Positions 41,104 to 57,613 of a stretch of 64,000 nucleotides of DNA are shown piece after piece. A program made the translations under genes and the position numbers. The number at the start of each line of letters is the position of its first letter. Position 1 is the first letter of the stretch. Source of the stretch: Tolypothrix sp. PCC 7910. Lineage in GTDB: Bacteria > Cyanobacteriota > Cyanobacteriia > Cyanobacteriales > Nostocaceae. The notes beneath the pieces were generated by a model. It worked only from the letters and a program-made list of their open reading frames with translations. It was not told the origin of the DNA and searched no databases. The stretch is taken from positions 1,365,501-1,429,500 of the forward strand of contig NZ_CP050440.1 of the NCBI RefSeq assembly GCF_011769525.1. Reading direction: 5' to 3'.

Positions 41104-41931
41104 TTAAAGCGATTCCTCAACCTCATCCCAAGGCGCTGGCTTGCGAATTTGTTCCCAAATTGGGCTGTAGAGCGCTTCGTATAATTCTCTAGCCATTTCC
41201 ACCATACCTACATAACCTGCGTAGGGATGGTGACGTTCTTGGTTAATATCGAGGAAGGGAATCCGGGCTTTGAGGGCTGTATATTGGTTACGTCCCCCAG
41301 CAATTAACATATCGGCGTTGGTGTCTTTCACCAGTTGCAGCAATTCTTTAGCATTGCCTTTTTCCAGCATGATGCCATCGTTACCGATTAATTTTTTAAT
41401 CTTGGCTTTGTCTTCTTCTGTACTCTTGCGGGTGCTGGTGGCAACAACTTCTATGCCTAAGTCTTTCGCTGCGGAAATAATTGACCAACTCTTAACGCCG
41501 CCTGTATATAAGACAACGCGCTTGCCTTTGAGTCGCGCACGATAGGGAGCCAGAGCCAAATCTAAAGCAGCAGTTTCTTCAGCAATCAGCTTTTCTGTGC
41601 GATCTTGTAAATCAGGATCTCCTAATTTAGCAGCAATGTTTCGCAGACAACGATTCATGTCATCGATGCCGTAGAAAGACTCTTCAATGTAAGGAATGCC
41701 GTAACGCTCCTCCATCTTTCTCGCCATGTTCAGCAAAGCGCGCGAGCAGATCATGACATTCAGCTTGGCGCGGTGAGCGTAGGTAATTTCTTGATAGCGA
41801 GCATCACCTGTAATTTTTGATAAAACGCGAATGCCCAATTTTTCCAATAGTGGTGTCACTCCCCACATTTCGCCGGCGATGTTGTACTCACCGATTAAGT
41901 TAATATCATAAGGTGTAGTATATTCAGGTTC
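41104..41931 (-). CDS. nifE: NifE, C-terminal part (gene interrupted)
   Basis: About 276 residues that are the C-terminal part of Nif[91 protein letters not shown] and [17 protein letters not shown]. There is no real start: coding homology begins at the 9-bp core GAACCTGAA (41923-41931 read on the minus strand). The N-terminal part lies at 52284-52850 on the plus strand and ends at the same core in the same frame. Joining them gives a 461-residue NifE reading [17 protein letters not shown]. Confidence 0.95.
41923..41931 (-). other. nifE recombination core, right-hand partner (attachment site)
   Basis: GAACCTGAA on the minus strand, the only sequence shared with the nifE 5' fragment end (52842-52850). 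The two cores are inverted relative to each other on this chromosome. Confidence 0.85.
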
Positions 41932-41935
41932 AAAC

Positions 41936-41964
41936 AAACGCTTAGTCTAACACCTTAAGCGTTT
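41936..41964. repeat. Inverted repeat in the element arm next to the nifE core
   Basis: AAACGCTTA (41936-41944) and TAAGCGTTT (41956-41964) flank a short loop just inside the element end. It may be a recombinase binding feature. Confidence 0.55.
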
Positions 41965-42032
41965 CAATTGCAGACATCAATACGCATCAATGATGTATTG
42001 CAGTCACATTTGTATGAATGCGATCGCTCTCG

Positions 42033-43265
42033 TTATGAACCTGGATTAGCTACTGGCGGAGGAAACCAAGGAGAACTACCATTAAATCGCACATCTTGGT
42101 CTAAACGACTATGGAAACTAAACAAGACTGAGGAAGTATCACCCTGTCCCATCAAATTAATTCTCCAACCAGGAACAGGAATAGTTTGACAAGCAGGTTT
42201 ATTAATAGTTACACCCAAACAAGTATCATCCCAAGTTACCTGATCAGCCCAATGTAAATTAAAAGTATTAGCCGATTTACCAGTTTGCACAGATGCAGCT
42301 TTAATTGCTTCATTCACAAGATAACGCGGTACACTTTTGGGCGCGTCAAATTCAAATCCCATCTTAGTGGCATAATACACCCATTGCTGCTTTGGCGAGG
42401 AAACTAAGACTTTCCAACCAAATACATTATCCCTAACCGGAACTGCTCCTGTAATCTGTCTAGAAGGGCCATCTCCACCATAACTCGACCATTGCAAGGT
42501 TTGAATTTGATCAACTTTCCAAGCAGAAGGCTGAATTTGGGAACGTTTGGCTGCATCTGATAAAATCTCTGTAATTGTTTTTTGAGATAAATTTCCGACG
42601 CTAGCAATTAAATCTAATTCCAATATCTGACCGTTTAAATCACTGCGATATATCCATTGTGCAGGTTCTTTCGGGTTTGGTTGAGCATTTTTGAGGGTAA
42701 TTAACCATCCCGGGGTATTTGTCGAATTACAACGCTGATCTGTTCTGGAAAGTTCCAAACAATTATTTTTCCATACCTTGGGTTCAACAGATGTCACTCT
42801 CAACTTTCCTATTGCTGGTTCGCTTAAGAGAGTGGAATTACTAATTGCTTTTGCACTAATATTTTTTGGTAAGCTCTGTAACCAGTTAACGCGAAAATTA
42901 TTGTGTAGGCTTTGAGGTGCAACAGCATGATATAACCAACGTTGCTTTCCACCAGCAACAGTTAAAACCCAACCCTTAAGACCGATTTTTTGACAATTTT
43001 CGTTACGTGCTGGCAGATTCAGACAACTATCAAATATCTTCTCATCTACTTTTACAATTTGAACATCTGCAAGTTTCAAGTTTAAACGTTTCGCCATATC
43101 TTGGCGGATCTTAAGACTCACTGTATTCGGTATATTAGTTAATTTATATGAAGATGCTGCTTGAGATATTCTAGTAGGATTAGAAGCTAAAAGATGTTGA
43201 TGTATCAAAGTAAGAGACAGCATCAAGCAGCCCGCCATTGTAAAAATAGTAGTTTTCAATTTCAT
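42033..43265 (-). CDS. Exported protein with repeated Cys-containing domains
   Basis: A 410-residue protein with a signal peptide (TIFTMAGCLMLSLTLIHQHLLA). It contains at least three copies of a module in which a Cys pair is followed by GW and a beta strand: FDSCLNLPARNENCQ..GWVLTV, KNNCLELSRTDQRCN..GWLITL and DDTCLGVTINKPACQ..GWRINL, each followed by W.Y or similar. The Cys pairs probably form disulfides outside the cytoplasm. No function is known to me. It is element cargo, lying just inside the nifE attachment site. Confidence 0.72.
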   Translation of the reverse strand: MKLKTTIFTMAGCLMLSLTLIHQHLLASNPTRISQAASSYKLTNIPNTVSLKIRQDMAKRLNLKLADVQIVKVDEKIFDSCLNLPARNENCQKIGLKGWVLTVAGGKQRWLYHAVAPQSLHNNFRVNWLQSLPKNISAKAISNSTLLSEPAIGKLRVTSVEPKVWKNNCLELSRTDQRCNSTNTPGWLITLKNAQPNPKEPAQWIYRSDLNGQILELDLIASVGNLSQKTITEILSDAAKRSQIQPSAWKVDQIQTLQWSSYGGDGPSRQITGAVPVRDNVFGWKVLVSSPKQQWVYYATKMGFEFDAPKSVPRYLVNEAIKAASVQTGKSANTFNLHWADQVTWDDTCLGVTINKPACQTIPVPGWRINLMGQGDTSSVLFSFHSRLDQDVRFNGSSPWFPPPVANPGS

Positions 43266-43402
43266 AGAAAATATTGATAAGTTTAGTTTGTCTGACGGTA
43301 ACTATACAAATTTGGTTGCAAGTTCAACTATAGTTGATTTACAAGTGTGACTATAAATACTTGCAACTGAGCAATATCCCTGCGTCAAAAGTGGAGAAGA
43401 AA

Positions 43403-43882
43403 ATGCTATTACGCTCTGTTGCTATTGCTTCAAGTTTAACTGTGTCAATCATATTGGTTATATTTCTAGAAGTTAAACCCAGCACTAGCCAAATATCCCA
43501 GTTAAGTAATCAAGAGAATTTGGAAAGCAAATTGGAAATAGTCAAAAATGGTGATGATTTAATTCGTCTCAATGGTCAAAAGGTGAAACTGATTGGACGT
43601 TACACATCTAGAAGCTGGAAGCCCAACCCAGAATCTACCGGAATCCCAGGTTTTCAAGGACTTTATATCAAGTCCCAAGTTGTGCTGGAGGATGAAACCA
43701 AGGTAAGCATTTACCCCTCTTGGAATAAACAATCGTTGAGATCGCCTGATGAAGTAGAAAAATATAATAATCAAATTGTTGAAGCTATTGGAGTGGTAGA
43801 GTTTGACTCTTCGCCTGTCCCAAATTCATCGACAAGAGAATCATTTATTAATTTAACGCAATTAAACTTATACGTTCAGTAA
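43403..43882 (+). CDS. Small exported or membrane-anchored hypothetical protein
   Basis: A 159-residue protein. The start is placed at the ATG at 43403 (MLLRSVAIASSLTVSIILVIFLEV), preceded by GGAG; the frame is open for 23 more codons. After the hydrophobic N-terminus comes a small beta-rich domain (NGQKVKLIGRYTSR, SQVVLEDETKVSIYPSW, NQIVEAIGVVEF) of the OB-fold kind. Function unknown. Confidence 0.6.
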   Translation: MLLRSVAIASSLTVSIILVIFLEVKPSTSQISQLSNQENLESKLEIVKNGDDLIRLNGQKVKLIGRYTSRSWKPNPESTGIPGFQGLYIKSQVVLEDETKVSIYPSWNKQSLRSPDEVEKYNNQIVEAIGVVEFDSSPVPNSSTRESFINLTQLNLYVQ

Positions 43883-43892
43883 CAATTACTCA

Positions 43893-43931
43893 ACAGTCGT
43901 CATGAACTGCGTACACCAGCACGCATGAAAA
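43893..43931 (+). repeat. Dispersed repeat, copy inside the element
   Basis: TCATGAACTGCGTACACCAG and following bases; related copies at 14176-14222 and 30553-30596. Confidence 0.55.
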
Positions 43932-44107
43932 TACCTCTTTCCAGTCAACAGTCAACCGTCAACACTATTTACAAGTCAGTTTTTAACTAACAAGTATCTT
44001 AGAGAAGATATTATGAAAAATAAAATTTAAACTTTGAGATTCATCAAATAAATATGCAAATTTATTAGGATAGTTAGTTAGTCCTGAAAAATCTATCTGT
44101 TAAATGT

Positions 44108-44986
44108 ATGACTAATAGCTTGTTTGGAATATCAAATAATGTCTCTGAACGTACGCCAGGTTGGTCATTAAATGAGCGAGATACCCAGTTTATAGAAATG
44201 TTAATGCCTGTAGGGGAATGGTTGTACCGTTACTACTTTCAAGTAAAAACCGCTGGTTGGGATTACATACCAAAAGAAGGAAAGGTATTACTAGTTGGTT
44301 CTCATAATGGCGGAATGGCTTCGCCCGACTTAATAATGATGATGTATGATTGGTTTTCTCGATTTGGAACTGAGCGTTTGATTTATGGTTTAATGCATCC
44401 TTACGCTTGGAAAGTAAGTCCAGAAATAGGCAAATTAGCTCAAAAATTAGGAGCGATTGTTGCACATCCAAAAATGGCTAGTGCGGCTTTTGATTTAGGT
44501 GCTAGTGTTTTGGTCTACCCAGGAGGACAATATGATATGTTTCGTCCTTATAGCCAACGCCATAAAATTAATTTTGCAGGTAATAAAGGGTTTATCAAGC
44601 TAGCTTTAAAACAAGAAGTACCAATAATTCCTTTAATATCCGTAGGCGCTCATGATACTTTGATAGTTTTATTTGACTGTTATAATTTAGTCAAACAGTT
44701 ACATCAGTGGGGATTACCTTGGTTATATCAATTAGATCCAGGAGTGTTTCCCATTTATTTAGGTTTACCTTGGGGTTTGTCTATTGGCCCTTTACCTAAT
44801 ATTCCTTTACCTGTGCAAATTCATACTCGTGTATGCCCTCCAATTATTTTTGAGCGATATGGCAAAGATGCAGCGAGAGATAGGGATTATGTAAATGCTT
44901 GTTATAAGTTAGTTACTTTTCAAATGCAGCAGGAATTAGATAAATTAGTTAGAGATTCTAGCGTGAAGATAGAGGCTAGAGGCTAG
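44108..44986 (+). CDS. Acyltransferase (lysophospholipid or diacylglycerol type)
   Basis: A 292-residue PlsC-like acyltransferase with the catalytic block GSHNGGMASPDLIMM (H-x7-D form), VLVYPGGQYDMFRPYS and FIKLALKQEVPIIPLISVGAHDT. It probably transfers an acyl chain to a glycerolipid at the membrane. Acceptor unknown. It is cargo of the interrupting DNA and is followed by a rhodanese gene in the same direction. Confidence 0.85.
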   Translation: MTNSLFGISNNVSERTPGWSLNERDTQFIEMLMPVGEWLYRYYFQVKTAGWDYIPKEGKVLLVGSHNGGMASPDLIMMMYDWFSRFGTERLIYGLMHPYAWKVSPEIGKLAQKLGAIVAHPKMASAAFDLGASVLVYPGGQYDMFRPYSQRHKINFAGNKGFIKLALKQEVPIIPLISVGAHDTLIVLFDCYNLVKQLHQWGLPWLYQLDPGVFPIYLGLPWGLSIGPLPNIPLPVQIHTRVCPPIIFERYGKDAARDRDYVNACYKLVTFQMQQELDKLVRDSSVKIEARG

Positions 44987-45113
44987 AAAGAAGAGATTGA
45001 CAAAAATGTTTTCTGGTAACATTTAAAATTTATTCTTCTGTTATTTGCATTTCTCAACGCAAATCTGCTGGGCGCGATAATGCTTAATATTACGATGATA
45101 TAAGCATGAAAGC

Positions 45114-45968
45114 GTGAATACACAACTCCTCATTTCTCCTCAAGAACTCACGTCTCTGTTAGCAGAAAATTCATCACAGGTTGTCATTATCGATACGCGC
45201 AGTCCAGAAGAATATACTATTTCCCATATTCCTAACTCTATTAATATTAGAGATTTTTTTACCTACCTTTTAGATAATTCTTCCCCAGTAGGGTTAAATA
45301 AACTGCAAGAGCATTTTCAAGAAATTCTCAGCAGTGTAGGAATCACTGGTGCTGAATGGTTAATTGTGTATGAGGATGCTTTTAATAAAGGTTATGGTCA
45401 ATCTTGTCGAGCAGCTTTTCTATTAAAATATTTGGGTTGCGCTCACGTATCTGTCTTACATGGAGGATATAGAGCATGGCTGAATGCGGAATTACCTATT
45501 ACCAATGAAGTCCCATTATGTGAACGCAGCATATTTAAATTGCATCCCAACTCTGAGATGATGGTGACTACCACCGAGATGTTGCAAGCAATTGAGAATC
45601 CAGCAATTATAAAATTAGATGTGCGCGATCACGAAGAATGGCTGGGGTTGAGTTCTTCTCCCTATGCTCCTGATTTCTGCCCTCGTAAAGGTAGAATTCC
45701 TAATGCTTTGTGGCTAGAATGGCATCGTTTAATGACATCTGATTCGGACATACCTATGTTTCGCTCAAAATCAGAAATTTTAGAAATTTGTCAATCTTTA
45801 GGTATTACTTTAGACTCTATAGTGTATGTTTACTGTTTTAAAGGTTCTAGGGCTGCGAATACTTTAATTGCTTTACAAACAGCAGGAATTTACGCCAAAA
45901 ATTATTTTGGTTCTTGGAATGAATGGTCTCGCGATTTTTTGCTACCTATTGATAGTAAAATCATCTGA
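45114..45968 (+). CDS. Thiosulfate/3-mercaptopyruvate sulfurtransferase (two rhodanese domains)
   Basis: A 284-residue tandem rhodanese protein. The first domain has IDTRSPEEYTISHIPNSINI; the second has LDVRDHEEWLGL and the active-site loop VYCFKGSRAANT with the persulfide Cys about 240. The start is a GTG at 45114. It moves sulfane sulfur between donors such as thiosulfate or mercaptopyruvate and thiol acceptors. Element cargo. Confidence 0.88.
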   Translation: MNTQLLISPQELTSLLAENSSQVVIIDTRSPEEYTISHIPNSINIRDFFTYLLDNSSPVGLNKLQEHFQEILSSVGITGAEWLIVYEDAFNKGYGQSCRAAFLLKYLGCAHVSVLHGGYRAWLNAELPITNEVPLCERSIFKLHPNSEMMVTTTEMLQAIENPAIIKLDVRDHEEWLGLSSSPYAPDFCPRKGRIPNALWLEWHRLMTSDSDIPMFRSKSEILEICQSLGITLDSIVYVYCFKGSRAANTLIALQTAGIYAKNYFGSWNEWSRDFLLPIDSKII

Positions 45969-45991
45969 AAAAGCCAGCTTCAAGTAGAGTA

Positions 45992-46792
45992 TTAGCCTTT
46001 GAAAATAATATCGTAAAGTGATAGTAAAATCTCTACCACAATGAGAATTACTACATACCACTCAACTCGCTGGCTACTGCTATGCTGCATAAATTCCAGT
46101 ACTGTTTGTGCGGTTTGAGAAATTAGGTCTAGTTTACGTTCTAAAGCATGGTGCCGTTCCCTGATTTCGTATTCATCTTCTAATCGCAGATATAAGTTTT
46201 CTAACTGTGGGGATTCCCAAAGTAACTCTGGTTTATCGATAATCTCTACTCGTCCTACAATCTTATGTTGAACTAACAACGTAGTGCCAAGTTGACGCAA
46301 TAATTCCCGACTCTGGCGTGAACTTCTGTGTTCACTTTGGAGACTAGCAGCAAATGGTTCAATTTGATCAAATACAGTCGCTAGGCTAGTTTCATAATGA
46401 GATAAGACTACACTCTTAGCGAGAATATCAGCTACTATCTGCAAGCGTTCTACACTAAAGTCTTGCAAGAAAATCTTTCCTTCCTTCACTCTCTCACTTT
46501 CGGCAAGTTTGAGCTTAATTTCCACCTCTTCTGTTTCTGGGTTGGCAAAAGCATCACTAACTTTTGAGGATAGTTTAGTTAAGAAGTCTACCTTTTCTAC
46601 AGGCTCAAGGTTAAATAGAACAACTGCACCATAGTCGAATAGTACTGCACCACCCTGTTCACCTACTGTAACCATCACTGGCATAGTTGCCAAGCAAATG
46701 TAATTCTCTAATGTTTTAAGATTAATTTTTTTACCAAGGAATAGGGCCTGCGCTCTAAAGCTATCTCTGTCATTAAAAAGTAGTTTTTGCAT
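45992..46792 (-). CDS. RMD1/YagE family (DUF155) membrane protein
   Basis: A 266-residue protein with the DUF155 pattern VTVGEQGGAVLFDYGAVVLFNLEPVEKVDFL, ETEEVEIKL, LAKSVVLSHYETSLATVFDQIEPFAASL and a C-terminal membrane helix YVVILIVVEILLSLYDIIF. The relatives are eukaryotic RMD1 proteins. The bacterial function is not established. Convergent with the rhodanese gene; element cargo. Confidence 0.85.
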   Translation of the reverse strand: MQKLLFNDRDSFRAQALFLGKKINLKTLENYICLATMPVMVTVGEQGGAVLFDYGAVVLFNLEPVEKVDFLTKLSSKVSDAFANPETEEVEIKLKLAESERVKEGKIFLQDFSVERLQIVADILAKSVVLSHYETSLATVFDQIEPFAASLQSEHRSSRQSRELLRQLGTTLLVQHKIVGRVEIIDKPELLWESPQLENLYLRLEDEYEIRERHHALERKLDLISQTAQTVLEFMQHSSSQRVEWYVVILIVVEILLSLYDIIFKG

Positions 46793-46989
46793 TGTTGCCC
46801 TATACTATATTCTGCCTGTTAATCTATGGGGTAGTGATAAAAATGAATAAATTATCCTAATTTTTGAACTTAACACGAATGTTCTTTCCCCCTACCCTAT
46901 AGTGTAAATAAGATGGGATATGTTTTAGTTGGCAGTTCTTAAACTTGTGGGTGATTTGCTAGCAATAGGCTTTGGTGAAGATCATGAAA

Positions 46990-47114
46990 GATTCATTTGT
47001 CACTTGTTAAACAAGCCAGCAGAATTGGGGGATTCTCCCCCAAACCCCCGATTGGGTGACGGTTGCGTCCCCCAAACCCCCTCCAAAATTATTGTTTGGT
47101 TTTTTGTTGAGTAA
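46990..47114 (+). repeat. 125-bp inverted repeat, copy 1 (nifE-side)
   Basis: Matches 54682-54805 in inverted orientation over about 125 bp. 47037-47093 is identical (57 bp) to the complement of 54702-54758. The unit holds a GGGGGATTCTCCCCC stem and a G/C-rich centre around GATTGGGTGACGGTTGCGTC. A short frame across it is not believed to be a gene. It is a MITE-like repeat and a likely inversion breakpoint. Confidence 0.88.
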
Positions 47115-47437
47115 TATCATATCTGCTTGAACACTTGCCATTGCAAACGGAGTGAAGCAATCGCAGAGACCTTGTGATTGCCCGTCTTCGTCAGGTCTAA
47201 ATGCCCACTAATAAAATTGACAATTTTTTTACTTGTCATCTATACGTTGTTACTAAAATTCAGTTGATTTAGTACATTTATACTGCTATAATACCGCTGA
47301 ATGCTTAAGCTTTCACTTAAACATTACTTAAGTTTTATCTCAACACCATTTCTACAGATCAGCAACAATGTTTTGTCAGGAGATAGAAGCATTGTTTGCT
47401 TTGGCATGAATTTTTCTAAGTAGATGGAGGATTAGGT

Positions 47438-47863
47438 ATGGATAATAATCCCAGCATTCTCTCACACATCTCGATTGGCACGAATGATTTTGCAAAGGCG
47501 ATCGCATTCTACGACAAAGTACTGCCCACCCTTGGCTGTAAGCGAATTATGGAACATCCGGGTGCTGTCGCCTATGGTAAGCAGTTTCCAGAATTTTGGG
47601 TACAAACGCCATTTGATGGTAAACCTGCAACCGTCGGGAATGGCACTCATATTGGTTTTATCGCACCAACTAAAGAATCAGTTCATGCGTTTTATCAAGC
47701 AGCATTAGCAGCGGGAGGCGTGGATGATGGTGCGCCAGGCCCAAGACCGGACTATGGTGAACCATACTATGGCTGCTTTGTCCGCGATCCCGATGGTCAT
47801 AAGGTTGAAGCGTCTTATTGGGATATGCAACTGATTCAGGAACTTTATATGGATGAAGTCTAG
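47438..47863 (+). CDS. VOC family (glyoxalase-like) protein
   Basis: A 141-residue VOC-fold protein: SILSHISIGTNDFAKAIAFYDKVLPTLG, THIGFIAPTKESVHAFYQAALAAGG and YYGCFVRDPDGHKVEASYW. The metal-site pattern (His near the start, Glu in KVEA) fits a dioxygenase or lyase of the superfamily. Substrate unknown. GGAGG lies about 8-12 nt before the ATG. Element cargo on the nifK side of the repeat. Confidence 0.87.
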   Translation: MDNNPSILSHISIGTNDFAKAIAFYDKVLPTLGCKRIMEHPGAVAYGKQFPEFWVQTPFDGKPATVGNGTHIGFIAPTKESVHAFYQAALAAGGVDDGAPGPRPDYGEPYYGCFVRDPDGHKVEASYWDMQLIQELYMDEV

Positions 47864-47883
47864 GCAAGATAGGAGTTCATTTT

Positions 47884-48621
47884 CTATTTGGCTAGCTTGA
47901 TAGATAAAACTTGATAACCAGCGCCTTGAGGCATACATTGGCCATCAGCATCTAAAGGACAAGCAACTTGATTGGGGGATGGACGAGTTCCTGCAACGTA
48001 TTCTGCGGTAATTTCTACTTCTTGATTCTGAAGCGATCGCAATTGATCGCGAGAAACTTGAACAGATGGACGCAACACTAACCGAGTTTGGTTTGGGGTG
48101 TGAGAAATCAGAAAAAATTCCTCTCCAAGATAAGCTTTAACTGACATCACGGGAGGAATTTCTTCATAAATTAATTTTCCCCGCCAAGATAATATTTTTG
48201 GTTGAGTGATAGGGTTATTTGATTGTTGCCATAATCCCCAGCGATGATTTTTAGCATTAGCTTCGGCAATTAAATATTGGGTTTTGCTCTCCGAGCAATT
48301 TTGTAAAGTTTCACGGTCAACAATAGCGTTACCGGACTCTACCATCAGCAGATTAACTGAGCGATTATTCACAAAAACTTCACCAACGATGCGATCGCTT
48401 CTTAGTTTTTCTGTGCGTCTAATCACAACAGGACTTAAAGGTGGTAATAACTGTTTGAGCTTTTGTGTTGCGGGGATCGCCTGTGCTGTCGCCTTTGGTA
48501 CATAGATACAGGCTAGCTTGAGTGTAATTTTTTGTCCTGCATTATCTTTAATACGAATTGTTTCAGCGTCTACAGTCCCCACTATTGTAGCTAGTACTAA
48601 TATTAGTGCTAGTATATCCAT
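47884..48621 (-). CDS. Thermonuclease-like (SNase) exported protein
   Basis: A 245-residue protein with a signal peptide (ILALILVLATIVGTVDA) and an SNase-like beta-barrel: IRIKDNAGQKITLKLACIYVPKAT, RIVGEVFVNNRSVNLLMVESGNAIVDRE and AEANAKNHRWGLW. Not all catalytic Arg/Glu positions of active nucleases can be confirmed by eye. The last 100 residues form a second small domain. Convergent with the VOC gene. Confidence 0.72.
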   Translation of the reverse strand: MDILALILVLATIVGTVDAETIRIKDNAGQKITLKLACIYVPKATAQAIPATQKLKQLLPPLSPVVIRRTEKLRSDRIVGEVFVNNRSVNLLMVESGNAIVDRETLQNCSESKTQYLIAEANAKNHRWGLWQQSNNPITQPKILSWRGKLIYEEIPPVMSVKAYLGEEFFLISHTPNQTRLVLRPSVQVSRDQLRSLQNQEVEITAEYVAGTRPSPNQVACPLDADGQCMPQGAGYQVLSIKLAK

Positions 48622-48978
48622 GTATTTTTGTATACTTATTTGTGTATAGATTTATAATTTTATATCACGTAACGACGCGATCGCCCCTAACCATTGCAAA
48701 CTCTACACTTATCCCAATGTTGCCAATATTTATAGGCTCACTACTAGCCACTTGACAGGGAGATAATGTACTTATATACATGAAATTATTCAAAAAACTA
48801 CTCGGATTTTTTACCGATTTGCTGTATTCTAGTTAATCCTAGGAAAATTTTCCCACTATACTTCATAAAAGATTCTTACGGGTCTGTCTGAAGATTCTTG
48901 AATAAATACATGAATGACTACCAAAATTTATGTAACAATTTTCATTGCCTAAATTTATAAAATTAACAGCAGAGTGCC

Positions 48979-49242
48979 ATGAAACTGATCAAAAAATCTG
49001 AAAAACTCCTACTCCAGAAGATGAAAGATATGGAGGCAATTGAAGACATTAATCTTCAAGAAGATCCTCTTGAGCCTCTTGAGTCTCCAGAATCCATAGA
49101 AGCGGAAAAAGCACTACTAGATCTAGAATATCAAGAGCTTGACTATATTCCTTTCCGTAACCACCCTCTTGTTCAATCAGTTGGCAATACAGGATGGCAA
49201 GTTTCTGAAATTTGGAAGGAAATTAGATTAGATAATTTCTAG
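48979..49242 (+). CDS. Small acidic hypothetical protein
   Basis: An 87-residue protein: basic helix MKLIKKSEKLLLQKMKDME, acidic Pro/Glu-rich centre (EDPLEPLESPESIEAEKALLDL) and an aromatic end (YIPFRNHPLVQSVGNTGWQV). No family recognised. It is in the nifK-side element DNA. Confidence 0.5.
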   Translation: MKLIKKSEKLLLQKMKDMEAIEDINLQEDPLEPLESPESIEAEKALLDLEYQELDYIPFRNHPLVQSVGNTGWQVSEIWKEIRLDNF

Positions 49243-49402
49243 TCATGCCTAGTGCTATTAGCATCAGTCTGAGATAATATCTGATTTTCAATGTAAGGCT
49301 AAATTAGAAATGAAGCAGCTAACATTCTAAACTTTGTTAGAGAGTGCTGTTTATTTTCAGCCTAATAACTAATACCATTTTGAAACAAAAATGCGACAAA
49401 TA

Positions 49403-49440
49403 CATTTGTAGGGGCGCAAAGCTTTGCGCCCCTACAAATG
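49403..49440. repeat. 38-bp perfect palindrome
   Basis: CATTTGTAGGGGCGCAAAG (49403-49421) is followed immediately by its exact complement (49422-49440). It would extrude a loop-free hairpin. It lies in non-coding DNA of the nifK-side element, 60 bp before another hairpin at 49500-49524. Confidence 0.8.
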
Positions 49441-49499
49441 TTTGATATTTTGCTAATATTTTTAGCGTGGAATGACACTTTCTTTAGCGAAATTTAGAT

Positions 49500-49524
49500 C
49501 CCCGATTTTTTCAAAAAATCGGGG
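49500..49524. repeat. CCCCGATTTTTT hairpin
   Basis: Arms CCCCGATTTTTT (49500-49511) and AAAAAATCGGGG (49513-49524) with a single-base centre. A common small hairpin repeat of cyanobacteria. Confidence 0.65.
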
Positions 49525-49661
49525 TCTGGGCCGCAACTCTAGTGAAAGTAACGCACCAAAAGCGTTGATGACACGTTACAGACTCCGATCTAAAGCCTTC
49601 TACTACCTAAAAAAGCTTACAGTTAACAGAAATTTTGAGTTTACTAGCTATTTTTAGAGTA

Positions 49662-49820
49662 ATGATGGAGCCGCTGCAGATGAAACGATGTGAAACATTA
49701 GCCGAATTGATAGCACGGACTGTGGTTGAATTTGAGCAACGAGAACTAGAACTGCAAAAAGCTCAGGTTCAGCCCCAGAAAAAAAGCACTAAGAAGCGTA
49801 AATCTAAAAAAATTGCTTAG
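49662..49820 (+). CDS. Small basic protein next to the nifK-side recombinase
   Basis: About 46-52 residues: candidate starts are the ATGs at 49662, 49665 and 49680, the last with GGAG about 10 nt upstream. The product reads MKRCETLAELIARTVVEFEQ and ends in a Lys/Arg-rich tail (KKSTKKRKSKK). It converges with the serine recombinase gene and overlaps its end by 4 bp. A short helix plus a basic tail is compatible with a DNA-binding accessory factor, but no homology is recognised. Confidence 0.5.
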   Translation: MMEPLQMKRCETLAELIARTVVEFEQRELELQKAQVQPQKKSTKKRKSKKIA

Positions 49821-51367
49821 TGTAAATATAGTAATTCAAGTCCTGTTACCAGGTTGCCATCTACCACTATTTTTTTGATACATCCTTTAAGTAAAGCTTG
49901 TTTGTCTTGTTGTTCTAATCCTTCCCAGTACCTCTGATTAGAAAATGCCATCACAATCCGTTCTTTAGCTATCAGATATTGTTTAGATGCATAGTTTGTG
50001 GTAGCGATAGCGTTTGCAATTTGCATCCTAATATCTTCTTTCGCTTTTGCAATTGCTGGATTTGATGGTAATGCTTCTAAGGTATTTAATGATGCCCGCA
50101 ATGTTTTGATTTCTGGTGCTTCCTCTGAAGAATCAACTTTATGTTCTACTAGTCCAGCTAACCTTTCGGCTTCGCCAACTAGATGATGAATTACTTGTTT
50201 TTCTAATTCATCGGAAGCAATCATTCGTCCGTTATGACAAGCACCAGTCCGATAAAAGCTGCATTGATAGTGATGACGCACAAAACCTTTGCGTTTCACT
50301 AATTTCTTGCACTGGCGACTATAAGCTGCACCACAATGAGCGCATTTCACTAAATTGGCGAATGGGTTGACATATTTTTGCTCCGTAGCCCAGCGATTAT
50401 TTCGATTCTCCCGAATCATGGCTTTGATGCGTTCGTGTTCTTCACGGCTGATAATCGCTTCGTCTTCGTGGGTTCCCCATGTCACTTCCCATTCATCAAA
50501 AGGTTTGCGATGTCCTTTAGGACGAACTAATGTGTTATATAGTGTCCCCCCTGCATAGATAGGATTCACAAGTATTGATCGCAATCCCGAAACCGACCAT
50601 TTCAACCCCGTGTGGGGATAACGCAGATTTAACGCACCTCCACGCGATTTATTGATATTCTCGAGTACAATTTCTTCTTCCTCTTCTAAAAGGTTAATCC
50701 TCGTATCGGTGGCTTTGGGGACGGCGTTTGCTTGGATACCAAAAGTCTCATGCAGTACTTTGACCGTTTGAGAGACTGTCCCTACTGTTAAAAATGTATC
50801 AAAAACAAATCGCATCAGTTGCGATCGCGTCAATTCTCTCTTACCTGCAATTAAACATACGCAAAGCCTTTCATCTCGTTTGTATTTGTCATCCTCAACG
50901 ATATAGCCCAAAGGTGCGTTCCAGTGAGGCTTTTTATTAGCTTTGCGAGTGTCGCGCTCTTTTTTGACTCGCATTGCTAGCATTTTCACCTCATACTTAG
51001 ATGCTGCTAGCCTGACATCAATAGTTAACTCGCCACCAATACTCGATAAGTCAAACGGTTCATCTAACGCATAAGGCTGTATACCTTTCTTTTTTAACGC
51101 ATCCATCAAGCGATAAAAGGTCATTGATGAAGATGTTAAGCGGTCAATCCGGATAAATAACAGCTTCGATACTTTCCCTATTGCAGATGCATTGATATCT
51201 TCAATTAACTGTAAAAGCCCTTTCCTTTGATCGCTGGTACGGCTTTCTACATCGTAATATATGTGCGTTGCGCCAGCATCACGCAACCGACGCATTTGTT
51301 TAATTAACGAGCCTTGATCTTCAGCTTGCTCATCTGTGGAAACCCGCGCATAACCCCAAACGTCCAT
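49817..51367 (-). CDS. Large serine recombinase for the nifK site (XisF-like)
   Basis: A 516-residue large serine recombinase. The N-terminal catalytic domain has MDVWGYARVSTDEQAED with Ser10 as nucleophile and LLFIRIDRLTSSS; a recombinase domain follows (GYIVEDDKYKRDERLCVC, GLRSILVNPIYAGGTLYN), then a zinc ribbon (VKCAHCGAAYSR and CSFYRTGACHNG) and a C-terminal helical region. It resembles XisF of the fdxN element. The start codon is 35 bp from an 18-bp arm of the nifK attachment site, the usual place for an element's own recombinase, so I assign it to nifK repair. It differs clearly from the recombinase at 52907. Confidence 0.92.
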   Translation of the reverse strand: MDVWGYARVSTDEQAEDQGSLIKQMRRLRDAGATHIYYDVESRTSDQRKGLLQLIEDINASAIGKVSKLLFIRIDRLTSSSMTFYRLMDALKKKGIQPYALDEPFDLSSIGGELTIDVRLAASKYEVKMLAMRVKKERDTRKANKKPHWNAPLGYIVEDDKYKRDERLCVCLIAGKRELTRSQLMRFVFDTFLTVGTVSQTVKVLHETFGIQANAVPKATDTRINLLEEEEEIVLENINKSRGGALNLRYPHTGLKWSVSGLRSILVNPIYAGGTLYNTLVRPKGHRKPFDEWEVTWGTHEDEAIISREEHERIKAMIRENRNNRWATEQKYVNPFANLVKCAHCGAAYSRQCKKLVKRKGFVRHHYQCSFYRTGACHNGRMIASDELEKQVIHHLVGEAERLAGLVEHKVDSSEEAPEIKTLRASLNTLEALPSNPAIAKAKEDIRMQIANAIATTNYASKQYLIAKERIVMAFSNQRYWEGLEQQDKQALLKGCIKKIVVDGNLVTGLELLYLH

Positions 51368-51401
51368 ATATCAAACCATAGCAGCGTTAGTTCATTGTAT
51401 C

Positions 51402-51425
51402 TGATAGCCAACGCATTAGTTCACT
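51402..51425 (+). other. nifK attachment site, 3'-fragment end
   Basis: Arm TGATAGCCAACGCATTAG (51402-51419) overlaps the core GTTCACT (51419-51425), after which nifK coding sequence resumes. The arm matches 17 of 18 positions of 56315-56332. Joining the two arms through the core rebuilds a dyad-symmetric site typical of serine recombinases. Confidence 0.88.
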
Positions 51426-51678
51426 GTTGTTCACCGAGCCAGTTGACCTATTAATCGGTAACTCCTACGGTAAGTACCTGTGGCGCGATTGCAAGGTGCC
51501 CTTAGTAAGAATCGGCTATCCCATAATGGATCGTCACCACCTGCACCGCTACAGCACCATCGGTTACCAAGGTGTAATCAACCTCCTCAACTGGGTTGTT
51601 AACACAATCTTCGAGGACATCGATCAACGCACCAATATTCCTTCCAAGACTGACATTTCTTACGACTTAGTTCGATAG
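51426..51678 (+). CDS. nifK: NifK, C-terminal part (gene interrupted and inverted)
   Basis: About 83 residues matching the end of the MoFe protein beta subunit: LFTEPVDLLIGNSYGKYLWRD, RIGYPIMDRHHLHRYSTIGYQG, INLLNWVVNTIFEDID and DISYDLVR. It has no start of its own and is on the opposite strand from the N-terminal part (56331-57613). Recombination at GTTCACT restores the frame as HLRSLLFTEP and a 512-residue NifK. Confidence 0.95.
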
Positions 51679-51704
51679 AAATTCAAGTCACTCGCGGCAT
51701 ATTT

Positions 51705-51749
51705 AAAAAGTAAAAAGTAAAAGATATTTCTTTTTACTTTTTACTTTTT
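51705..51749 (+). terminator. Long hairpin between nifK 3' end and the following gene
   Basis: Perfect 18-bp A/T-rich inverted repeat (51705-51722 and 51732-51749) with a 9-nt loop, 27 bp after the nifK stop. Being A/T-rich it may act as an mRNA 3' end stabiliser or a weak terminator within the operon. Confidence 0.5.
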
Positions 51750-51771
51750 CCTTGTACCTGAGGTATTGATT

Positions 51772-52104
51772 ATGGCAAGTATTAGTCAGGGTCACTCTCA
51801 TCCTCATCCTAATTACCATCCACCAAACTATAAACGCTCTGGTTCTTTTGATATTCTCCAACCTTTGCGCCGTCTGGTAGATGGTATTCCGGTAAAAAAT
51901 GCTCGTTTTGCCCATCTACTCTGTAGAGTAATACCTTGCTGTTGCCCGTTTGAGCGCGATATCAATTTATTTGGGCGGACTTACCATGTTCCAGCACTGT
52001 GCAAATTTAATCCTTTGTATGACGAAGTCGTTAGTTTGCGCTTCCGGGCTTTATCTTTTCTTGCCGATGAATGTGGTGAGGATGTAACGAAATACATTTG
52101 TTAG
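51772..52104 (+). CDS. Mo-dependent nitrogenase family protein (Mo-nitro_C)
   Basis: A 110-residue protein: SFDILQPLRRLVDGIPVKNARFAHLLCRVIPCCCPFERDI, then YHVPALCKFNPLYDEVVSLRFRALSFLADECGED. It belongs to the small family found between nifK and nifE in heterocystous cyanobacteria. The function is not settled; several Cys and the ER-rich region hint at metal binding. The ATG at 51772 follows TGAGG by 8 nt. It is inverted together with its neighbours. Confidence 0.88.
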   Translation: MASISQGHSHPHPNYHPPNYKRSGSFDILQPLRRLVDGIPVKNARFAHLLCRVIPCCCPFERDINLFGRTYHVPALCKFNPLYDEVVSLRFRALSFLADECGEDVTKYIC

Positions 52105-52132
52105 ACCTAGACATTAATCAATACCCATTACC

Positions 52133-52256
52133 TATTACCATTTGTCATTAGTTATTAGTCATTAGTCATTGGTCATTGGTCATTAGTCATTAGTTATTAG
52201 TTACTAAATTATTCAAATTACAAATGACAAACGACAAATGACAAATGACAAAAAAT
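52133..52256. repeat. Short tandem repeats upstream of nifE
   Basis: TTAGTCATTGGTCATT-type repeats followed by CAAATGACAAACGACAAATG, able to form hairpins. Confidence 0.65.
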
Positions 52257-52283
52257 CACCTGCCATCCAGCAAGAGAAGAGAG

Positions 52284-52850
52284 ATGAAAATCACCCAAGG
52301 CAAAATTAACGAGCTGCTTAGTGAGCCAGGATGCGAGCATAATCAGCACAAGCAGAGCGAAAAGAAAAATAAATCTTGTGCCCAACAAGCACAACCAGGT
52401 GCAGCTCAAGGGGGTTGTGCTTTTGATGGCGCAATGATTGCTCTAGTACCAATTACTGATGCTGCTCATTTAGTCCACGGGCCGATCGCCTGTGCTGGTA
52501 ACTCCTGGGGTAGTCGTGGTAGTCTCTCTTCTGGCCCCATGCTCTACAAAACGGGCTTTACTACAGACTTAAGCGAAAATGATGTCATCTTTGGTGGCGA
52601 GAAAAAGCTCTACAAAGCTATTGTAGAAATACATAAGCGCTACAACCCAGCAGCTGTGTTTGTTTACGCCACCTGTGTAACGGCTTTAATTGGTGATGAT
52701 ATTGATGCTGTTTGCAAAACTGCGGCAGAAAAATTAGGAACTCCTGTGATCCCAGTTATTGCGCCTGGATTTATTGGCAGCAAAAACCTGGGTAATCGCT
52801 TTGGCGGTGAAGCTTTGCTGGAATATGTAGTTGGTACAGCAGAACCTGAA
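52284..52850 (+). CDS. nifE: NifE, N-terminal part (gene interrupted and inverted)
   Basis: The first 189 residues of Nif[79 protein letters not shown] and [31 protein letters not shown]. Cluster-ligand Cys are present (GGCAFDG, IACAGN, ATCVT). The start at ATG 52284 gives the family N-terminus. Translation would run on into element DNA for HFQQHR and stop at 52871. The remaining part is at 41104-41931 on the other strand. Apparently translation is not productive until recombination. Confidence 0.95.
52842..52850 (+). other. nifE recombination core, 5'-fragment end (attachment site)
   Basis: GAACCTGAA, identical to the minus-strand core at 41923-41931 and in the same codon phase. The element arm after it (TTTCAACAACACCGCTGATG) shows only loose symmetry with the other arm (AAACAAACGCTTAGTC). 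Confidence 0.85.
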
Positions 52851-52906
52851 CACTTTCAACAACACCGCTGATGATATGATTTTCCGACTGATTTGAATGG
52901 ATTCCC

Positions 52907-54313
52907 ATGAAAGTTTACGGTTACGCCCGTGTGAGTACACAAGAACAAGCTGAGGAATTTGACGCGCTAAATCAGCAAGTAGCCAGATTAAAAGCTGCGG
53001 GTGCAACGGAAGTTTTAATAGATATCGAGTCAGGACGCAACGATGAGAGAAAACAGTATAACGAGTTGCTGAAGTTGGTACAACAAAACCAAGTTGATGA
53101 AATTATCATCACTCGCGTCGATCGCTTGGGTAGAAGTGTGATTACTATCCATAAAGCGATCGATGTTTTTGTGAGGCATAATGTCAATCTGCGGATATTG
53201 GATGCACCCGTTGACCCCAATTCCCCTTTTGGCTGGTTTAGTATCAATCAAATGTCGGGGTTGGCAGAATTTGAATCCAGGCTGTTATCCCAGCGGATTC
53301 GCCACGGAAATAATTATTTTCGCCAGCAATTAAAATATTGCGTTCCGCCTTTTGGATATACGAAAGACGAAAATCAGCGTTTAACCCCTAATCACAATAT
53401 TCATGCCAAATCAGGGAAGACTTACTTTGAGTTAGCCAAGATAATTATCGACTTAACGCTGTCAATGCGATCGCTTAAAGATGTTTGCGATTATATTTAC
53501 ACCGAATATGAAATAGTTTTTAGCATCGCTGGCTTGCGAGATTGGGTGAAAAACCCTGCACTGCAAGGGCATACAGCTTATTTTTTCCGCAAGAAGAAAG
53601 GCATTAATCGAGAACCAATCATTAATTTCAACACTCACGAAGCCTTAATTACCGCCGCCACAGTAGAAGCTATTCAACACAAGCTGTCAGAAAATAAGAA
53701 GTATCGCAGTTCCACCAAATCAACCCGTGGCGACTATCCACTCGCAGGTTTAATTAAATGCGCTCATTGTGGCGGAAGTATGTATCGTAACTTTTCCCGC
53801 CACAAAACCAGAGTTGAGTATATCCGCTGCGTTAATTACAACAAACCCGGAAAATATCACTGCGAAAACTCCAAATGTACCCGACTGCGGGAAATCATCG
53901 CCCAGACGATCGCAGCTTTATGTGAAAATGCACCCCATTTAATCGAACACCTAGAAACTCAGTCAACAACAATGCAGGTGACGAATACCAAAGACATTGA
54001 CAAATTCACCAATGAATTATCTGTGCTGCGGGGACTTCGCAGCTCTAACCCCGATATCATGGAAGCGATCGCCAAAATTGAGGCGACGATTAACACCCTA
54101 TCAACACCCACTAGAATTGTTGATAGGGATGCTTTTGAAAATGCCAAGCGAAAAATTGCGATCGCTTCTCAGGCTACATTCTGGGAATCACTGGATGATT
54201 CAGAACTGCAATCGGCGTTGGCTGAGTTCGTAGAGAAAGTTGAGGTAGACTCGTCAGGAACTATCACTCCTACCTTTAAATTGCCATTAACCCTATCCTC
54301 AATGCGCCCATAG
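52907..54313 (+). CDS. Large serine recombinase for the nifE site (XisF-like)
   Basis: A 468-residue serine recombinase: MKVYGYARVSTQEQAEEFDAL with Ser10, IIITRVDRLGRSVITI, SGLAEFESRLLSQRIRHGN, recombinase domain (FGYTKDENQRLTPNH, AGLRDWVKNPALQGHTAYF), zinc ribbon (IKCAHCGGSMYRN and CVNYNKPGKYHCENSKC) and a C-terminal coiled region. It starts 57 bp after the nifE core, so it is the likely nifE-element recombinase. It is closer to XisF in its N-terminus than the 516-residue one at 49817. It reads in the same direction as nifE-N and could be co-transcribed with it. Confidence 0.93.
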   Translation: MKVYGYARVSTQEQAEEFDALNQQVARLKAAGATEVLIDIESGRNDERKQYNELLKLVQQNQVDEIIITRVDRLGRSVITIHKAIDVFVRHNVNLRILDAPVDPNSPFGWFSINQMSGLAEFESRLLSQRIRHGNNYFRQQLKYCVPPFGYTKDENQRLTPNHNIHAKSGKTYFELAKIIIDLTLSMRSLKDVCDYIYTEYEIVFSIAGLRDWVKNPALQGHTAYFFRKKKGINREPIINFNTHEALITAATVEAIQHKLSENKKYRSSTKSTRGDYPLAGLIKCAHCGGSMYRNFSRHKTRVEYIRCVNYNKPGKYHCENSKCTRLREIIAQTIAALCENAPHLIEHLETQSTTMQVTNTKDIDKFTNELSVLRGLRSSNPDIMEAIAKIEATINTLSTPTRIVDRDAFENAKRKIAIASQATFWESLDDSELQSALAEFVEKVEVDSSGTITPTFKLPLTLSSMRP

Positions 54314-54435
54314 GTTTTAATGAACTCTTCTGGAGACATATTCCCCACCTTCAAGTCCCCGTAGTATCTTTCATAAGCTGCGAGTAACTTGTCATTGAGC
54401 ATTTTTAGCACTTTTTGAGAATGTGTTGAACTCAT
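54280..54435 (-). CDS. Possible small helical protein overlapping the recombinase end
   Basis: A minus-strand frame starting with ATG at 54435 encodes MSSTHSQKVLKMLNDKLLAA, then YERYYGDLKVGNMSPEEFIKTYGRIEDRV, which looks like a real helical protein. The frame continues to 54169 across the recombinase C-terminus, where it loses protein character. Either a short gene with an overlapping tail or the remnant of one. The left end is given approximately. Confidence 0.3.
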
Positions 54436-55418
54436 AAAACATTCTGTAGCGATGTTTTTAGGTTATTTCTTGGGTGGAATTTTTCTGTTAGCAGTGAACG
54501 ACTTGCACAACGCTAAGTTCGATGCAGAAAGACGCTTGCAGTTAAAATTTTCATACTAGGTTGTAGCTTTGACATTGTTTCTCTAGTAAAGCTGAGAGAA
54601 GCTAGTTCTTTTAATAGCTTCCCCAATGAAAAAAGCTTCTCGTGCGTTACGGCTATATTAAACACAAAACCAAAAAACTAGTTACTCAACAAAAAATAGA
54701 AAATAATTTTGGAGGGGGTTTGGGGGACGCAACCGTCACCCAATCGGGGGTTTGGGGGATTCTCCCCCAAATCTTCTGGCTTTTTTAATAAGTGACAAAT
54801 CAATCACTAATCAGCTTAACCCAAGCATATTAGGCTATATTATTGATATTTTTTCAGAAACCAAATCAGATTCATATAGTTTGATTGAAAAAATTACTAG
54901 TAATTAATAGTAAGATTTTTATCAATTAATAGCTAATTTTCCACTTAGAATAATTTGCATTTTCAGGCTGAAATAGCCAGGCATCTATTTAGATGAACCT
55001 CTATCTTGCTTATATAGTTAAAACTAACAAAGCCCCGAAATAAATTCAGGGCTTCGCTTTATAAACCATTTATTAAATGCCAGCTATAAATCTTTGCCAG
55101 CGCTTTTATCTATGTAACTATCTTCGCGCAATTCTTTACTGAAAGGTAGGGGAGATCTACCCAACTTTTACCTAATTTTGCTTAGGTAGCTGTTTAATAA
55201 TTTTTTTAGCTTTGACCACACCCCCACTCTTCTGTATCTCATCACAAAACTCAGTAGAATTAACTAGAAGCTTAAGCAAGTAGAGAACAGCCTAAATGAG
55301 CTAAGGTCTACACACAAACCATTTTCAATCATCATCAAATCCTGAAACTGTAGGGTACGTTAGCCTATGGCGTAACGCACCCTACTGAATTGACATCCCC
55401 AGTTTTGCAACACAACCT
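54436..55418. other. Non-coding stretch holding the repeat
   Basis: No gene supported. It contains the second 125-bp repeat copy (54682-54805) and a weak AAGCCC/GGGCTT hairpin near 55030-55055. Confidence 0.4.
54682..54805 (-). repeat. 125-bp inverted repeat, copy 2 (nifK-side)
   Basis: Inverted copy of 46990-47114, with 57 identical bases (54702-54758) and scattered differences outside. Homologous recombination between the copies would invert the DNA between them. Confidence 0.88.
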
Positions 55419-55811
55419 TTACTGCTGTTGTCTAAGTTGCTGTTGGAGTCTCAATGTTTCCATTTGCTGTCTTTGTTGATTGAGTTGAAATTGTTCAAAG
55501 GGTTGCTGTCTTAATTGATTTTGGAGCCTAAGCTGTCCAAATGGTTGTTGTGGATTTAGTTGATTTTGCAATCTAAATTGTTCAAATCGTTGTTGCTGTC
55601 GGAGCATTTGTTCATCTTGCTGCTGCCTAAAGTTTTGCCATATTTTTTGAGAAGATGATTGTTTGGTTAAGTTTTGGCTTTGTTGTTCTAGCGGCTGTTG
55701 CTTTTGAATTACCGTCTCACCTATGTCTGCTCGTGCAGCAGAAGTAATCACAAACTCTGATGCCAAAGCAACAAGTATTAACCCTGATTTAACTATCAAT
55801 GAATAATTCAT
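55419..55811 (-). CDS. Gln-rich exported protein
   Basis: A 130-residue protein with a signal peptide (GLILVALASEFVITSAARA) and a body almost entirely Gln/Leu/Arg/Phe in an irregular repeat (FEQFRLQNQL, PFGQLRLQNQL, PFEQFQLNQQ). Probably an extracytoplasmic low-complexity protein. Function unknown. Element DNA on the nifK side. Confidence 0.6.
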   Translation of the reverse strand: MNYSLIVKSGLILVALASEFVITSAARADIGETVIQKQQPLEQQSQNLTKQSSSQKIWQNFRQQQDEQMLRQQQRFEQFRLQNQLNPQQPFGQLRLQNQLRQQPFEQFQLNQQRQQMETLRLQQQLRQQQ

Positions 55812-56314
55812 ACAGTTTTCTCAAAAAGGCAGTTTTTTTGCTGTAGCTACGTTAAACAATAGTTTTGTTGATGATTTTGGCTAAATCTTCTACTTCATCA
55901 CTCTTCAATACCAAAGATGCTGCCAATTGAATTGCAAATCGTAGCCCCATTAATTAGAATCCACCAGCCTCTGATAATTGTGACTAGGTAATTCTTGTTT
56001 CTCAATGGCTTTTAGATATTAACCATTGAGGCTATATTCTAATTTTATCGTAATTTAATTTGATGCTGAAAAAATCTAACTATATGTATAGTGTGTGATT
56101 ACTGAGATTGCTGCATTAACAAGATTGCTAGGTGAGCTACTCCAAAGGCTTGATACGGCTATATTATAAGTAGTGCGATCGCTCACACCATAACCATAAT
56201 TTTTCTTGACAACTTTAACGCATAATATACAATCTAAATGCGTAGAAGCTAATTATGGCTAGCATATTTCCCCAGTTACAAAAAATAATTTGTCGCTACA
56301 CCCTAAAATTATCT
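55812..56314. other. Non-coding DNA between the Gln-rich gene and the nifK attachment arm
   Basis: AT-rich. No gene supported. It would become the upstream region of the 49817-51367 recombinase after inversion of the nifK site. Confidence 0.4.
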
Positions 56315-56337
56315 TGATAGCAAACGCATTAGTGAAC
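56315..56337 (-). other. nifK attachment site, 5'-fragment end
   Basis: Arm TGATAGCAAACGCATTAG (56315-56332) and core AGTGAAC (56331-56337), the complement of GTTCACT. The core is inverted relative to 51419-51425. Confidence 0.88.
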
Positions 56338-57613
56338 GTAAGTGCCACAAGTCTTTACCTGCCCAGATTTTAGCTTCCTTACCGAATGGGCTAGAATCTA
56401 GCAATGCTTGCAGTTCTTTTTCAAATACATCATTGGAGTTGTGAACCAAAATGTGAACAGGTTCAGCACCCAATTCCAGCATGAAGCTAACAACACTGTA
56501 AACCAAATCGGGATCGCCGTAGATAGCGAAGCGCTTACCGTGAACCCAAGCATGGGAGTCAGTCATTGCGTCAACTGCACGACCGCGTTCGATTTCTAGT
56601 TCTTCAGGAATGGGTTTACCAGTCAGTTCGCTGAGTTTCATCAAGAACTCATCAGTACCCTTGATACCCCAAGGACGAGAAACGACTACATCTTGCTTCC
56701 ATTCTTTAGTGATGTAATCACGGGTCTTAGGAGTAGAGTGAGCTTGCAGAACAACTGTAGCTTTAGCATTAATTGCATCTGCTGCATCTTCTAACTTAGT
56801 ACCACCTGGGTACATATTAAATTCACCATCATTGGGTGAATCTACATACTCGCTGCTATCTGAGAGCAGGGTGTAGTCTAAGCCCATCACGGAAGCGATA
56901 CGCTTGATTTCGCGGTAATTGCCTACATAGGTGTCAAAACCAGCGATAAAGTTGATTTTGCCGTTGCTGGTAGATTTCTTCTTACCTGCTGTTAAGGTAG
57001 AAAGAATTCCCTTCATCATGTTGTCATAGCCAGTGATGTGGGAACCCACAAAGCTAGGAGTATGAGCGTAAGGTACTGGGAAATCTTGAGGAACTGAACC
57101 AGCACTCTTAGCGTTGTTAATAAACGCTTGTAAGTCATCCCCGATAACCTCAGCCATACAGGTGGTGCAGACTGCAATCATTTTGGGCTTGTACAGAGTG
57201 TAAGAGTTTGCCAAGCCATCAATCATGTTTTGCAGACCACCAAACACCGCTGCGTCTTCAGTCATGGAAGAAGACACACCAGAGAATGGTTCTTTGTAGT
57301 GACGGGTTAAGTGGGTACGGAAGTAAGCCACGCAACCTTGAGAACCTTGAACGAAGGGTAGAGTACCTTCAAAACCAACAGCAGCGAACATCGCGCCTAA
57401 AGGTTGGCAACCTTTAGCTGGATTAACTGTCAACGCTTCACGAGCGAAGTTCTTTTCACGATAATCCCAGCTTTTTGTCCATTCTGCAACCCGTTCTACT
57501 TCAGCGGGGTCATGACCGTTTTCAAACTCTTTCTTGTTTTGAAAAAGTTGTTTGTACTCGGGTTGGTGGAACAGTTGAACGTGATCTTGAATATTATCTG
57601 GATTCTGAGGCAT
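56331..57613 (-). CDS. nifK: NifK, N-terminal part (gene interrupted)
   Basis: The first 428 residues of the nitrogenase MoFe protein beta chain: [25 protein letters not shown] with P-cluster Cys69, [23 protein letters not shown] with Cys94, [14 protein letters not shown] with Cys152. Genuine sequence ends at KDLWHLRSL; after the core, the frame continues into element DNA as MRLLSR and stops at 56309. The start ATG at 57613 has GGAG at good spacing. The rest of the gene is at 51426-51678 on the opposite strand. Confidence 0.96.

Follow-up and report, generated by a model that had tools for sequence, protein, structure and literature searches.

How can a cyanobacterium make two nitrogenase proteins when the halves of their genes lie on opposite strands and are threaded through one another? 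This question is raised by the 64-kb window studied here (G000:C1:1365501-1429500, from the 8.76-Mb, seven-contig genome G000 of Tolypothrix sp. PCC 7910), in which nifK and nifE are each split, the two halves of each gene are on opposite strands, and a block consisting of nifK-C, a small open reading frame (ORF) and nifE-N is flanked by two XisF-type large serine recombinases, R1 and R2. The textbook heterocyst rearrangement is an excision between direct repeats. In the window, both pairs of attachment (att) cores are inverted as the genome stands, such that no single recombination would excise either interruption. We consider it probable that a heterocyst-type element of nifK, with R1, and another of nifE, with R2, are interlocked here through inversion of the intervening block (R1, nifK-C, orf, nifE-N, R2), and that both genes are mended by an inversion plus an excision during heterocyst differentiation. 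From left to right, the order is nifN(-), nifE-C(-), about 7.9 kb of cargo, R1(-), nifK-C(+), the small ORF(+), nifE-N(+), R2(+), a further 2.0 kb and nifK-N(-), with the following features:

39664..40983, minus strand: nifN, intact, downstream of nifE-C (PF00148; tblastn to NifN of the congener G007)
41104..41931, minus strand: nifE-C, 3' part of nifE (TIGR01283 positions 196-459)
41923..41931, minus strand: nifE att core GAACCTGAA, nifE-C side
41932..49679: cargo separating nifE-C from R1, its ORFs including acyltransferase, rhodanese, DUF155, glyoxalase and SNase-like genes
49680..49820, plus strand: 46-residue ORF, convergent with R1 and overlapping its 3' end, a candidate directionality factor
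49817..51367, minus strand: R1, XisF-type large serine recombinase of 516 residues, presumed nifK recombinase
51404..51425, plus strand: nifK att site, nifK-C side, element arm plus core GTTCACT (51419-51425)
51419..51678, plus strand: nifK-C, last 83-85 codons of nifK (TIGR01286 positions 433-516)
51766..52104, plus strand: small nitrogenase-associated ORF between nifK and nifE, of the Mo-dependent nitrogenase C-terminus family (PF06967, E 7.8e-38)
52284..52850, plus strand: nifE-N, 5' part of nifE (TIGR01283 positions 2-193; start assigned from tblastn to G007 NifE, against a mechanical ORF start of 52245)
52842..52850, plus strand: nifE att core GAACCTGAA, nifE-N side
52907..54313, plus strand: R2, XisF-type large serine recombinase of 468 residues, presumed nifE recombinase
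54169..54435, minus strand: 88-residue ORF, antisense overlap with the R2 3' end, a candidate directionality factor
56331..56337, minus strand: nifK att core GTTCACT, nifK-N side
56331..57613, minus strand: nifK-N, first 429 codons of nifK (TIGR01286 positions 1-433, 755.8 bits)

Inversion in silico between the nifK cores yields a whole nifK and renders the nifE cores direct, and deletion between these then yields a whole nifE; when nifE is recombined first and nifK second, the outcome is an identical chromosome, with intact nifK–orf–nifE, and an identical 12,983-bp circle. Each core pair is direct only after the in-silico inversion at the other gene, and because both pairs are inverted and the elements interlocked, an inversion must come first. 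Both genes are interrupted in frame: the joins (HLRSLLFTEP in nifK and a 12-residue join in nifE) are residue-identical to G007, and the restored stretch aligns to the uninterrupted nifK-orf-nifE of that congener with 87-88% identity. A first-pass annotation had described minus-strand nifK-N and nifE-C around a plus-strand nifK-C–orf–nifE-N between two serine recombinases, with GTTCACT and GAACCTGAA each forming an inverted pair, and had claimed that inversion of 51419-56337 mends nifK and makes the nifE cores direct, that excision of about 13 kb then mends nifE, that either order works and that both joins are in frame. The layout held to the base, as did the positions and strands of the cores, and every step was reproduced computationally.

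Core matches of seven or nine bases mean little by themselves; they are meaningful here because the in-frame gene boundary fixes their position and because the arms recur in relatives. The element-side arms are common to inverted and direct layouts, both for nifK (aligned across seven genomes) and for nifE (compared by eye). Automatic core picking failed in one of 20 cases, the nifE of G520 (core AAGC, 25 of 39 residues), and several other automatic cores are just 4-7 bases long, with G001 and G513 yielding only GAACC.

Both recombinases have the Resolvase, Recombinase and zinc-ribbon domains of large serine recombinases, exceed the cut-off of 375 bits of the NCBIfam XisF model NF041201 (R1 with 532.5 bits, R2 with 503) and sit near an element end, R1 adjoining nifK-C and R2 adjoining nifE-N. 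Homologues of R1 adjoin nifK-C, on the opposite strand, in direct nifK elements as well (G310, with an element of 4.2 kb, G001, G434 and G513), and are also found beside nifK-C in other genomes with nifK-N further off. Similarly, R2 homologues adjoin nifE-N, on the same strand, in the direct nifE elements of G001, G520, G521, G434 and G523, with the exception of G513, where R2 is at the nifE-C end. Since the direct elements of G001 carry orthologues of both and the direct nifK element of G310 carries an R1 homologue, R1 is tied to nifK and R2 to nifE, on which, by this genomic association, they probably act. In the direct nifE element of G513 (probably Calothrix parasitica NIES-267; L051:16159-18441), R2 lies on the opposite strand, and the two att arms appear by eye to be exchanged, as if the entire element had been turned round. 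The R2 of Plectonema radiosum NIES-515 (L055, G434:C366:22252-23653) is in two overlapping pieces, suggesting a frameshift or sequencing error.

The small ORF beside each recombinase is conserved. A script found the 46-residue ORF beside R1 in nine of 11 genomes (proportion of nonsynonymous differences, pN, 0.19, versus synonymous, pS, 0.57), and tblastn matched the 88-residue ORF in 17 of 19 R2 loci (pN 0.09 versus pS 0.37 in the part outside R2). Neither has a Pfam match, and position and conservation make them candidate recombination directionality factors, as a guess.

In vegetative cells, nifK and nifE would both be off. In a differentiating heterocyst, R1 would join the inverted nifK sites, flipping 51419-56337 and mending nifK, after which R2 would act on the now-direct nifE sites to excise the 12,983-bp circle and mend nifE; in the reverse order, R2 would invert and R1 would excise. 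Either recombinase alone could produce only an inversion, such that no DNA could be removed from the chromosome. Inversion by R1 or R2 would need no new chemistry, since site orientation alone decides between deletion and inversion in large serine integrases: with the A118 integrase, the orientation of the att sites sets which of the two occurs, with no measurable difference in rate (PMC3556126). The attL x attR direction of such integrases normally needs a directionality factor, which would presumably drive the reaction forward here. The first inversion, after which attP- and attB-like sites would both remain on the chromosome, would in principle be reversible, and the second step would remove attP on the circle and so commit the cell. 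We infer that the rearrangement occurs in heterocysts.

To place the layout within its genus, eight genomes were searched with nifE and nifK models and tblastn. The same interleaved arrangement is present in Nostoc carneum NIES-2107 (G002) and in G003, and in Nostoc linckia FACHB-104 (G004) it is divided between two contigs, one with the nifE-C-to-R2 part and one with nifK-N, which break off where a dispersed repeat lies, 0.5 kb past R2. The window is collinear from 40.9 to 57.7 kb with G002 and G003, apart from some gaps and insertions, and G004 aligns to it as two collinear pieces; the cargo is likewise collinear in all three, with some gaps. In Calothrix brevissima NIES-22 (G001), the layout is the ordinary direct one: orthologues of R1 (89%) and R2 (87%) are present, and the nifK element spans 116 kb and the nifE element 6.3 kb. 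In G005-G007, nifK and nifE are uninterrupted. Across all pairs of G000-G004, Nei-Gojobori ratios of nonsynonymous to synonymous substitution rates (dN/dS) range from 0 to 0.22 for R1, R2 and the four gene halves, with maxima of 0.09 for R1 and R2, 0.12 for nifK-N, 0.06 for nifE-C and 0 for nifK-C; the maximum of 0.22, for nifE-N, comes from one pair with very small dS, its other pairs being at or below 0.07. No internal stops were reported in any of the six in these genomes.

This conservation bears on what else the layout might be. The block could flip spontaneously and reversibly in vegetative cells too, the published arrangement being the commonest of a mixture of isomers, and a directionality factor, wherever one is available, could in principle let inverted sites of large serine integrases flip. 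However, G000, G002 and G003, whose assemblies cross the whole region, share one isomer, to which the nifE half of G004 also conforms, and we regard such free flipping as unlikely.

Less probable again, and to our minds quite improbable, is that the locus is a dead end, its genes permanently broken and the strains without nitrogen fixation from this cluster. There is something to be said for it: an additional, uninterrupted nifK is present in G001, G002 and G004, and G003 holds further nifK-like genes (best 308 bits). These genes weigh against programmed repair as well, since they leave G000 alone dependent on a split nifK, and so do three further results: G000 itself has a second full-length NifE-like gene (C1:867272-868642), neither pattern of the circle junctions (attP) had a match in IMG/VR, and the inverted block could not be traced to homologous recombination between repeats, as described below. 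Circle junctions were likewise absent from the loci retrieved; a shorter nifK-arm pattern matched five stretches, by pattern only. Against a dead end, the gene halves and both recombinases are, on the codon comparisons above, intact and under purifying selection, and G000 lacks any other NifK, its remaining matches to the nifK model being nifN and one of 46.6 bits. An assembly error, with one or both inverted joins as artefacts, is scarcely credible, although 'likely due to mis-assembly' was the verdict that Hilton et al. (2016) gave on seven cases of opposite orientation in their survey (PMC4874684). Comparison with relatives, which the first-pass annotation had listed among its checks, finds the arrangement again in other species, each with its own assembly. 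In G002 and G003, the collinearity runs through the att boundaries; G004 is split over two contigs, and the gap between them is at the dispersed repeat and not at an att site.

Copies of that dispersed repeat (about 150-200 bp) lie in inverted orientation on either side of the block, at 46963-47114 and 54680-54831. In G000 and G003, the 54680-54831 copy is bordered left and right by an identical 9-base flank, GGCTATATT; only one of the two flanks was found in G002, and only one was seen in G004, where the contigs end. Matching flanks argue against a reciprocal exchange at this copy, and inversion by homologous recombination between the repeats is not supported, although the flanks are also compatible with a later insertion or gene conversion. 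The repeat occurs at many places in the genus; 20 further G000 copies were aligned to find its ends, and several of these seem to have short flanking duplications.

Within the cargo, the acyltransferase, rhodanese and DUF155 genes (44005-46838) have their closest matches in G001, G006 and G007 elsewhere in those genomes. In G001, the rhodanese gene (near 1.34 Mb) and the DUF155 gene (near 2.26 Mb) occupy separate chromosomal places, which indicates that the element acquired host genes; all three genes would leave on the excised circle. Past nifK-N, at about 57.7-59.5 kb, the window holds nifD-C followed by a tyrosine-recombinase-like gene (58103-59521), and nifD-N lies about 20 kb beyond nifD-C on the same strand, as in an ordinary direct nifD element. 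Upstream of nifD-N is a further R1-like recombinase (G000:C1:1466026-1467567, plus strand; 50% identical), which has relatives in G001, G002, G003, G004 and G006 and may itself interrupt a gene.

Are inverted halves peculiar to this genus? NifE and NifK searches were run across the family, 217 genomes each, and genomes whose best match was weak for an intact gene were chosen by eye for a closer look (19 for nifE and 30 for nifK); all counts hold among the matches listed, and outside the genus this design misses split genes accompanied by an intact copy and left out some borderline genomes. For nifE, the two halves share a contig in nine of the 19, three inverted (G227, G277 and G517) and six direct (G434, G513, G520, G521, G523 and, at another site, G428); in the remaining ten, the halves are on separate contigs, there is a single half or the gene is not clearly split. 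With the genus set added (G000, G002, G003 and G004 inverted, G001 direct), half of the 14 are inverted. At codon 429 of nifK, both halves are on one contig in 16 of the 30, of which one is inverted (G506) and 15 are direct; of the other 14, six are split elsewhere, and in eight the halves lie on separate contigs or just one was seen. Inclusion of G310 and G001 (direct) and of G000, G002 and G003 (inverted) brings the inverted nifK cases to four of 21. By genus, the inverted cases fall into about five lineages (g1, g17, g11, g13 and g167), species of the same clade not being independent, and g1 and g17 hold direct forms too (G001 and G513). Nine additional loci, from eight genomes, gave no new same-contig case; judged by coordinates, these genomes look identical to ones already surveyed.

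The case of G506, from another genus, follows the same logic with another gene pair, nifD and nifK being the interlocked genes. Its nifD-N (minus strand) ends near 18924; nifD-C, on the plus strand from near 10570, precedes nifK-N (plus strand), which runs to 12727, and nifK-C (minus strand, 3435-3689) is adjoined by an R1 homologue (86%), another large serine recombinase adjoining nifD-C. Computed rearrangement, with nifK inverting at its core GTAG and nifD excising at its core GGTCTGGTGA or with the order reversed, leads to a single product in which both the nifD and the nifK frame are open, plus a circle of 13,095 bp.

At nifE, simpler inversions occur. In G227 and in G277 (Calothrix sp. 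NIES-3974, one contig), nifE-C, together with nifN and the genes beyond, is inverted relative to nifE-N, and a single inversion mends nifE with no loss of DNA: it covers 15,757 bp in G227 (381 of 463 residues identical to G007) and 29,044 bp in G277 (382 of 467). No second serine recombinase was seen nearby in the stretches fetched, and the inverted block of these two genomes may stem from one event or two. The metagenome-assembled genome G517 (Richelia sp. SL_2_1) needs a 64,283-bp inversion to mend nifE (381 of 459 residues identical to G007) and carries an R1-nifK-C-nifE-N-R2 block like that of the window, inverted relative to nifE-C; nifK-N is on another contig, and a full interlock is likely. 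We considered a breakpoint shared by the window and G517 and rejected it: the G517 stretch has no homologue of the window cargo ORFs at 42033-48979, and the two interlocks thus look independent. The two-step, order-independent rearrangement proposed in the first-pass annotation therefore keeps its geometry and loses its uniqueness.

How far does this depart from systems already known? In Hin- and Gin-type switches, small invertases of about 190 residues flip a segment between inverted sites back and forth. The window shares the flipping between inverted sites, but R1 (516 residues) and R2 (468 residues) are not small invertases, and the proposed pathway ends in excision. A118-type phage integrases have the same domain layout, and the orientation of their att sites decides the outcome (PMC3556126), whereas the role proposed in the window is developmental gene repair. 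R1 and R2 resemble XisF of the Anabaena PCC 7120 fdxN element in exceeding the XisF model cut-off; that element undergoes one direct-repeat excision and requires XisH and XisI (PMC4874684), whereas the window needs an inversion. The closest relatives are the eight nifK and two nifE elements in Table 1 of Hilton, Meeks and Zehr (2016; PMC4874684), which interrupt the same genes, each carry a recombinase of the same superfamily and mend the gene upon joining. In that account, recombinases act on direct repeats bracketing the element, in contrast to the inverted site pairs and interlocked elements of the window.

It had been supposed in the first-pass annotation that no heterocyst system of this kind was described, and among the titles and abstracts of the literature collection that we searched, none concerned an inversion-type heterocyst rearrangement. 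Opposite-orientation gene sections were nonetheless already in print in the seven cases of Hilton et al. (2016), which resemble the window in this respect and differ in having been left uncharacterised where they are mentioned (PMC4874684). The pattern is thus previously seen, and not recognised. As judged from the assemblies compared, the layout is real, conserved and recurrent, which suggests that at least some opposite-orientation cases are genuine and that heterocysts use programmed inversion as well as excision. Whether these cases amount to an unrecognised second class of programmed heterocyst rearrangement is, in our estimate, evenly balanced: inversion-type elements, in which the interlock would act as a lock against loss and as an order-independent logical AND with a commit step, would have arisen several times (nifK/nifE, nifD/nifK and single inversions at nifE).

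If inversion is also programmed, the published cases dismissed as mis-assembly deserve rereading. Such a bacterium would assemble scrambled genes in a manner reminiscent of ciliates, and would possess a natural two-recombinase, order-independent switch like those that synthetic biologists build from serine integrases. Should the inversion-type class hold, stray firing of one recombinase would flip DNA reversibly and never cure a cell of its elements. The question of why these elements persist, although excision cures the cell of them, would thereby become testable, as interlocked elements would not be lost through the action of a single recombinase.

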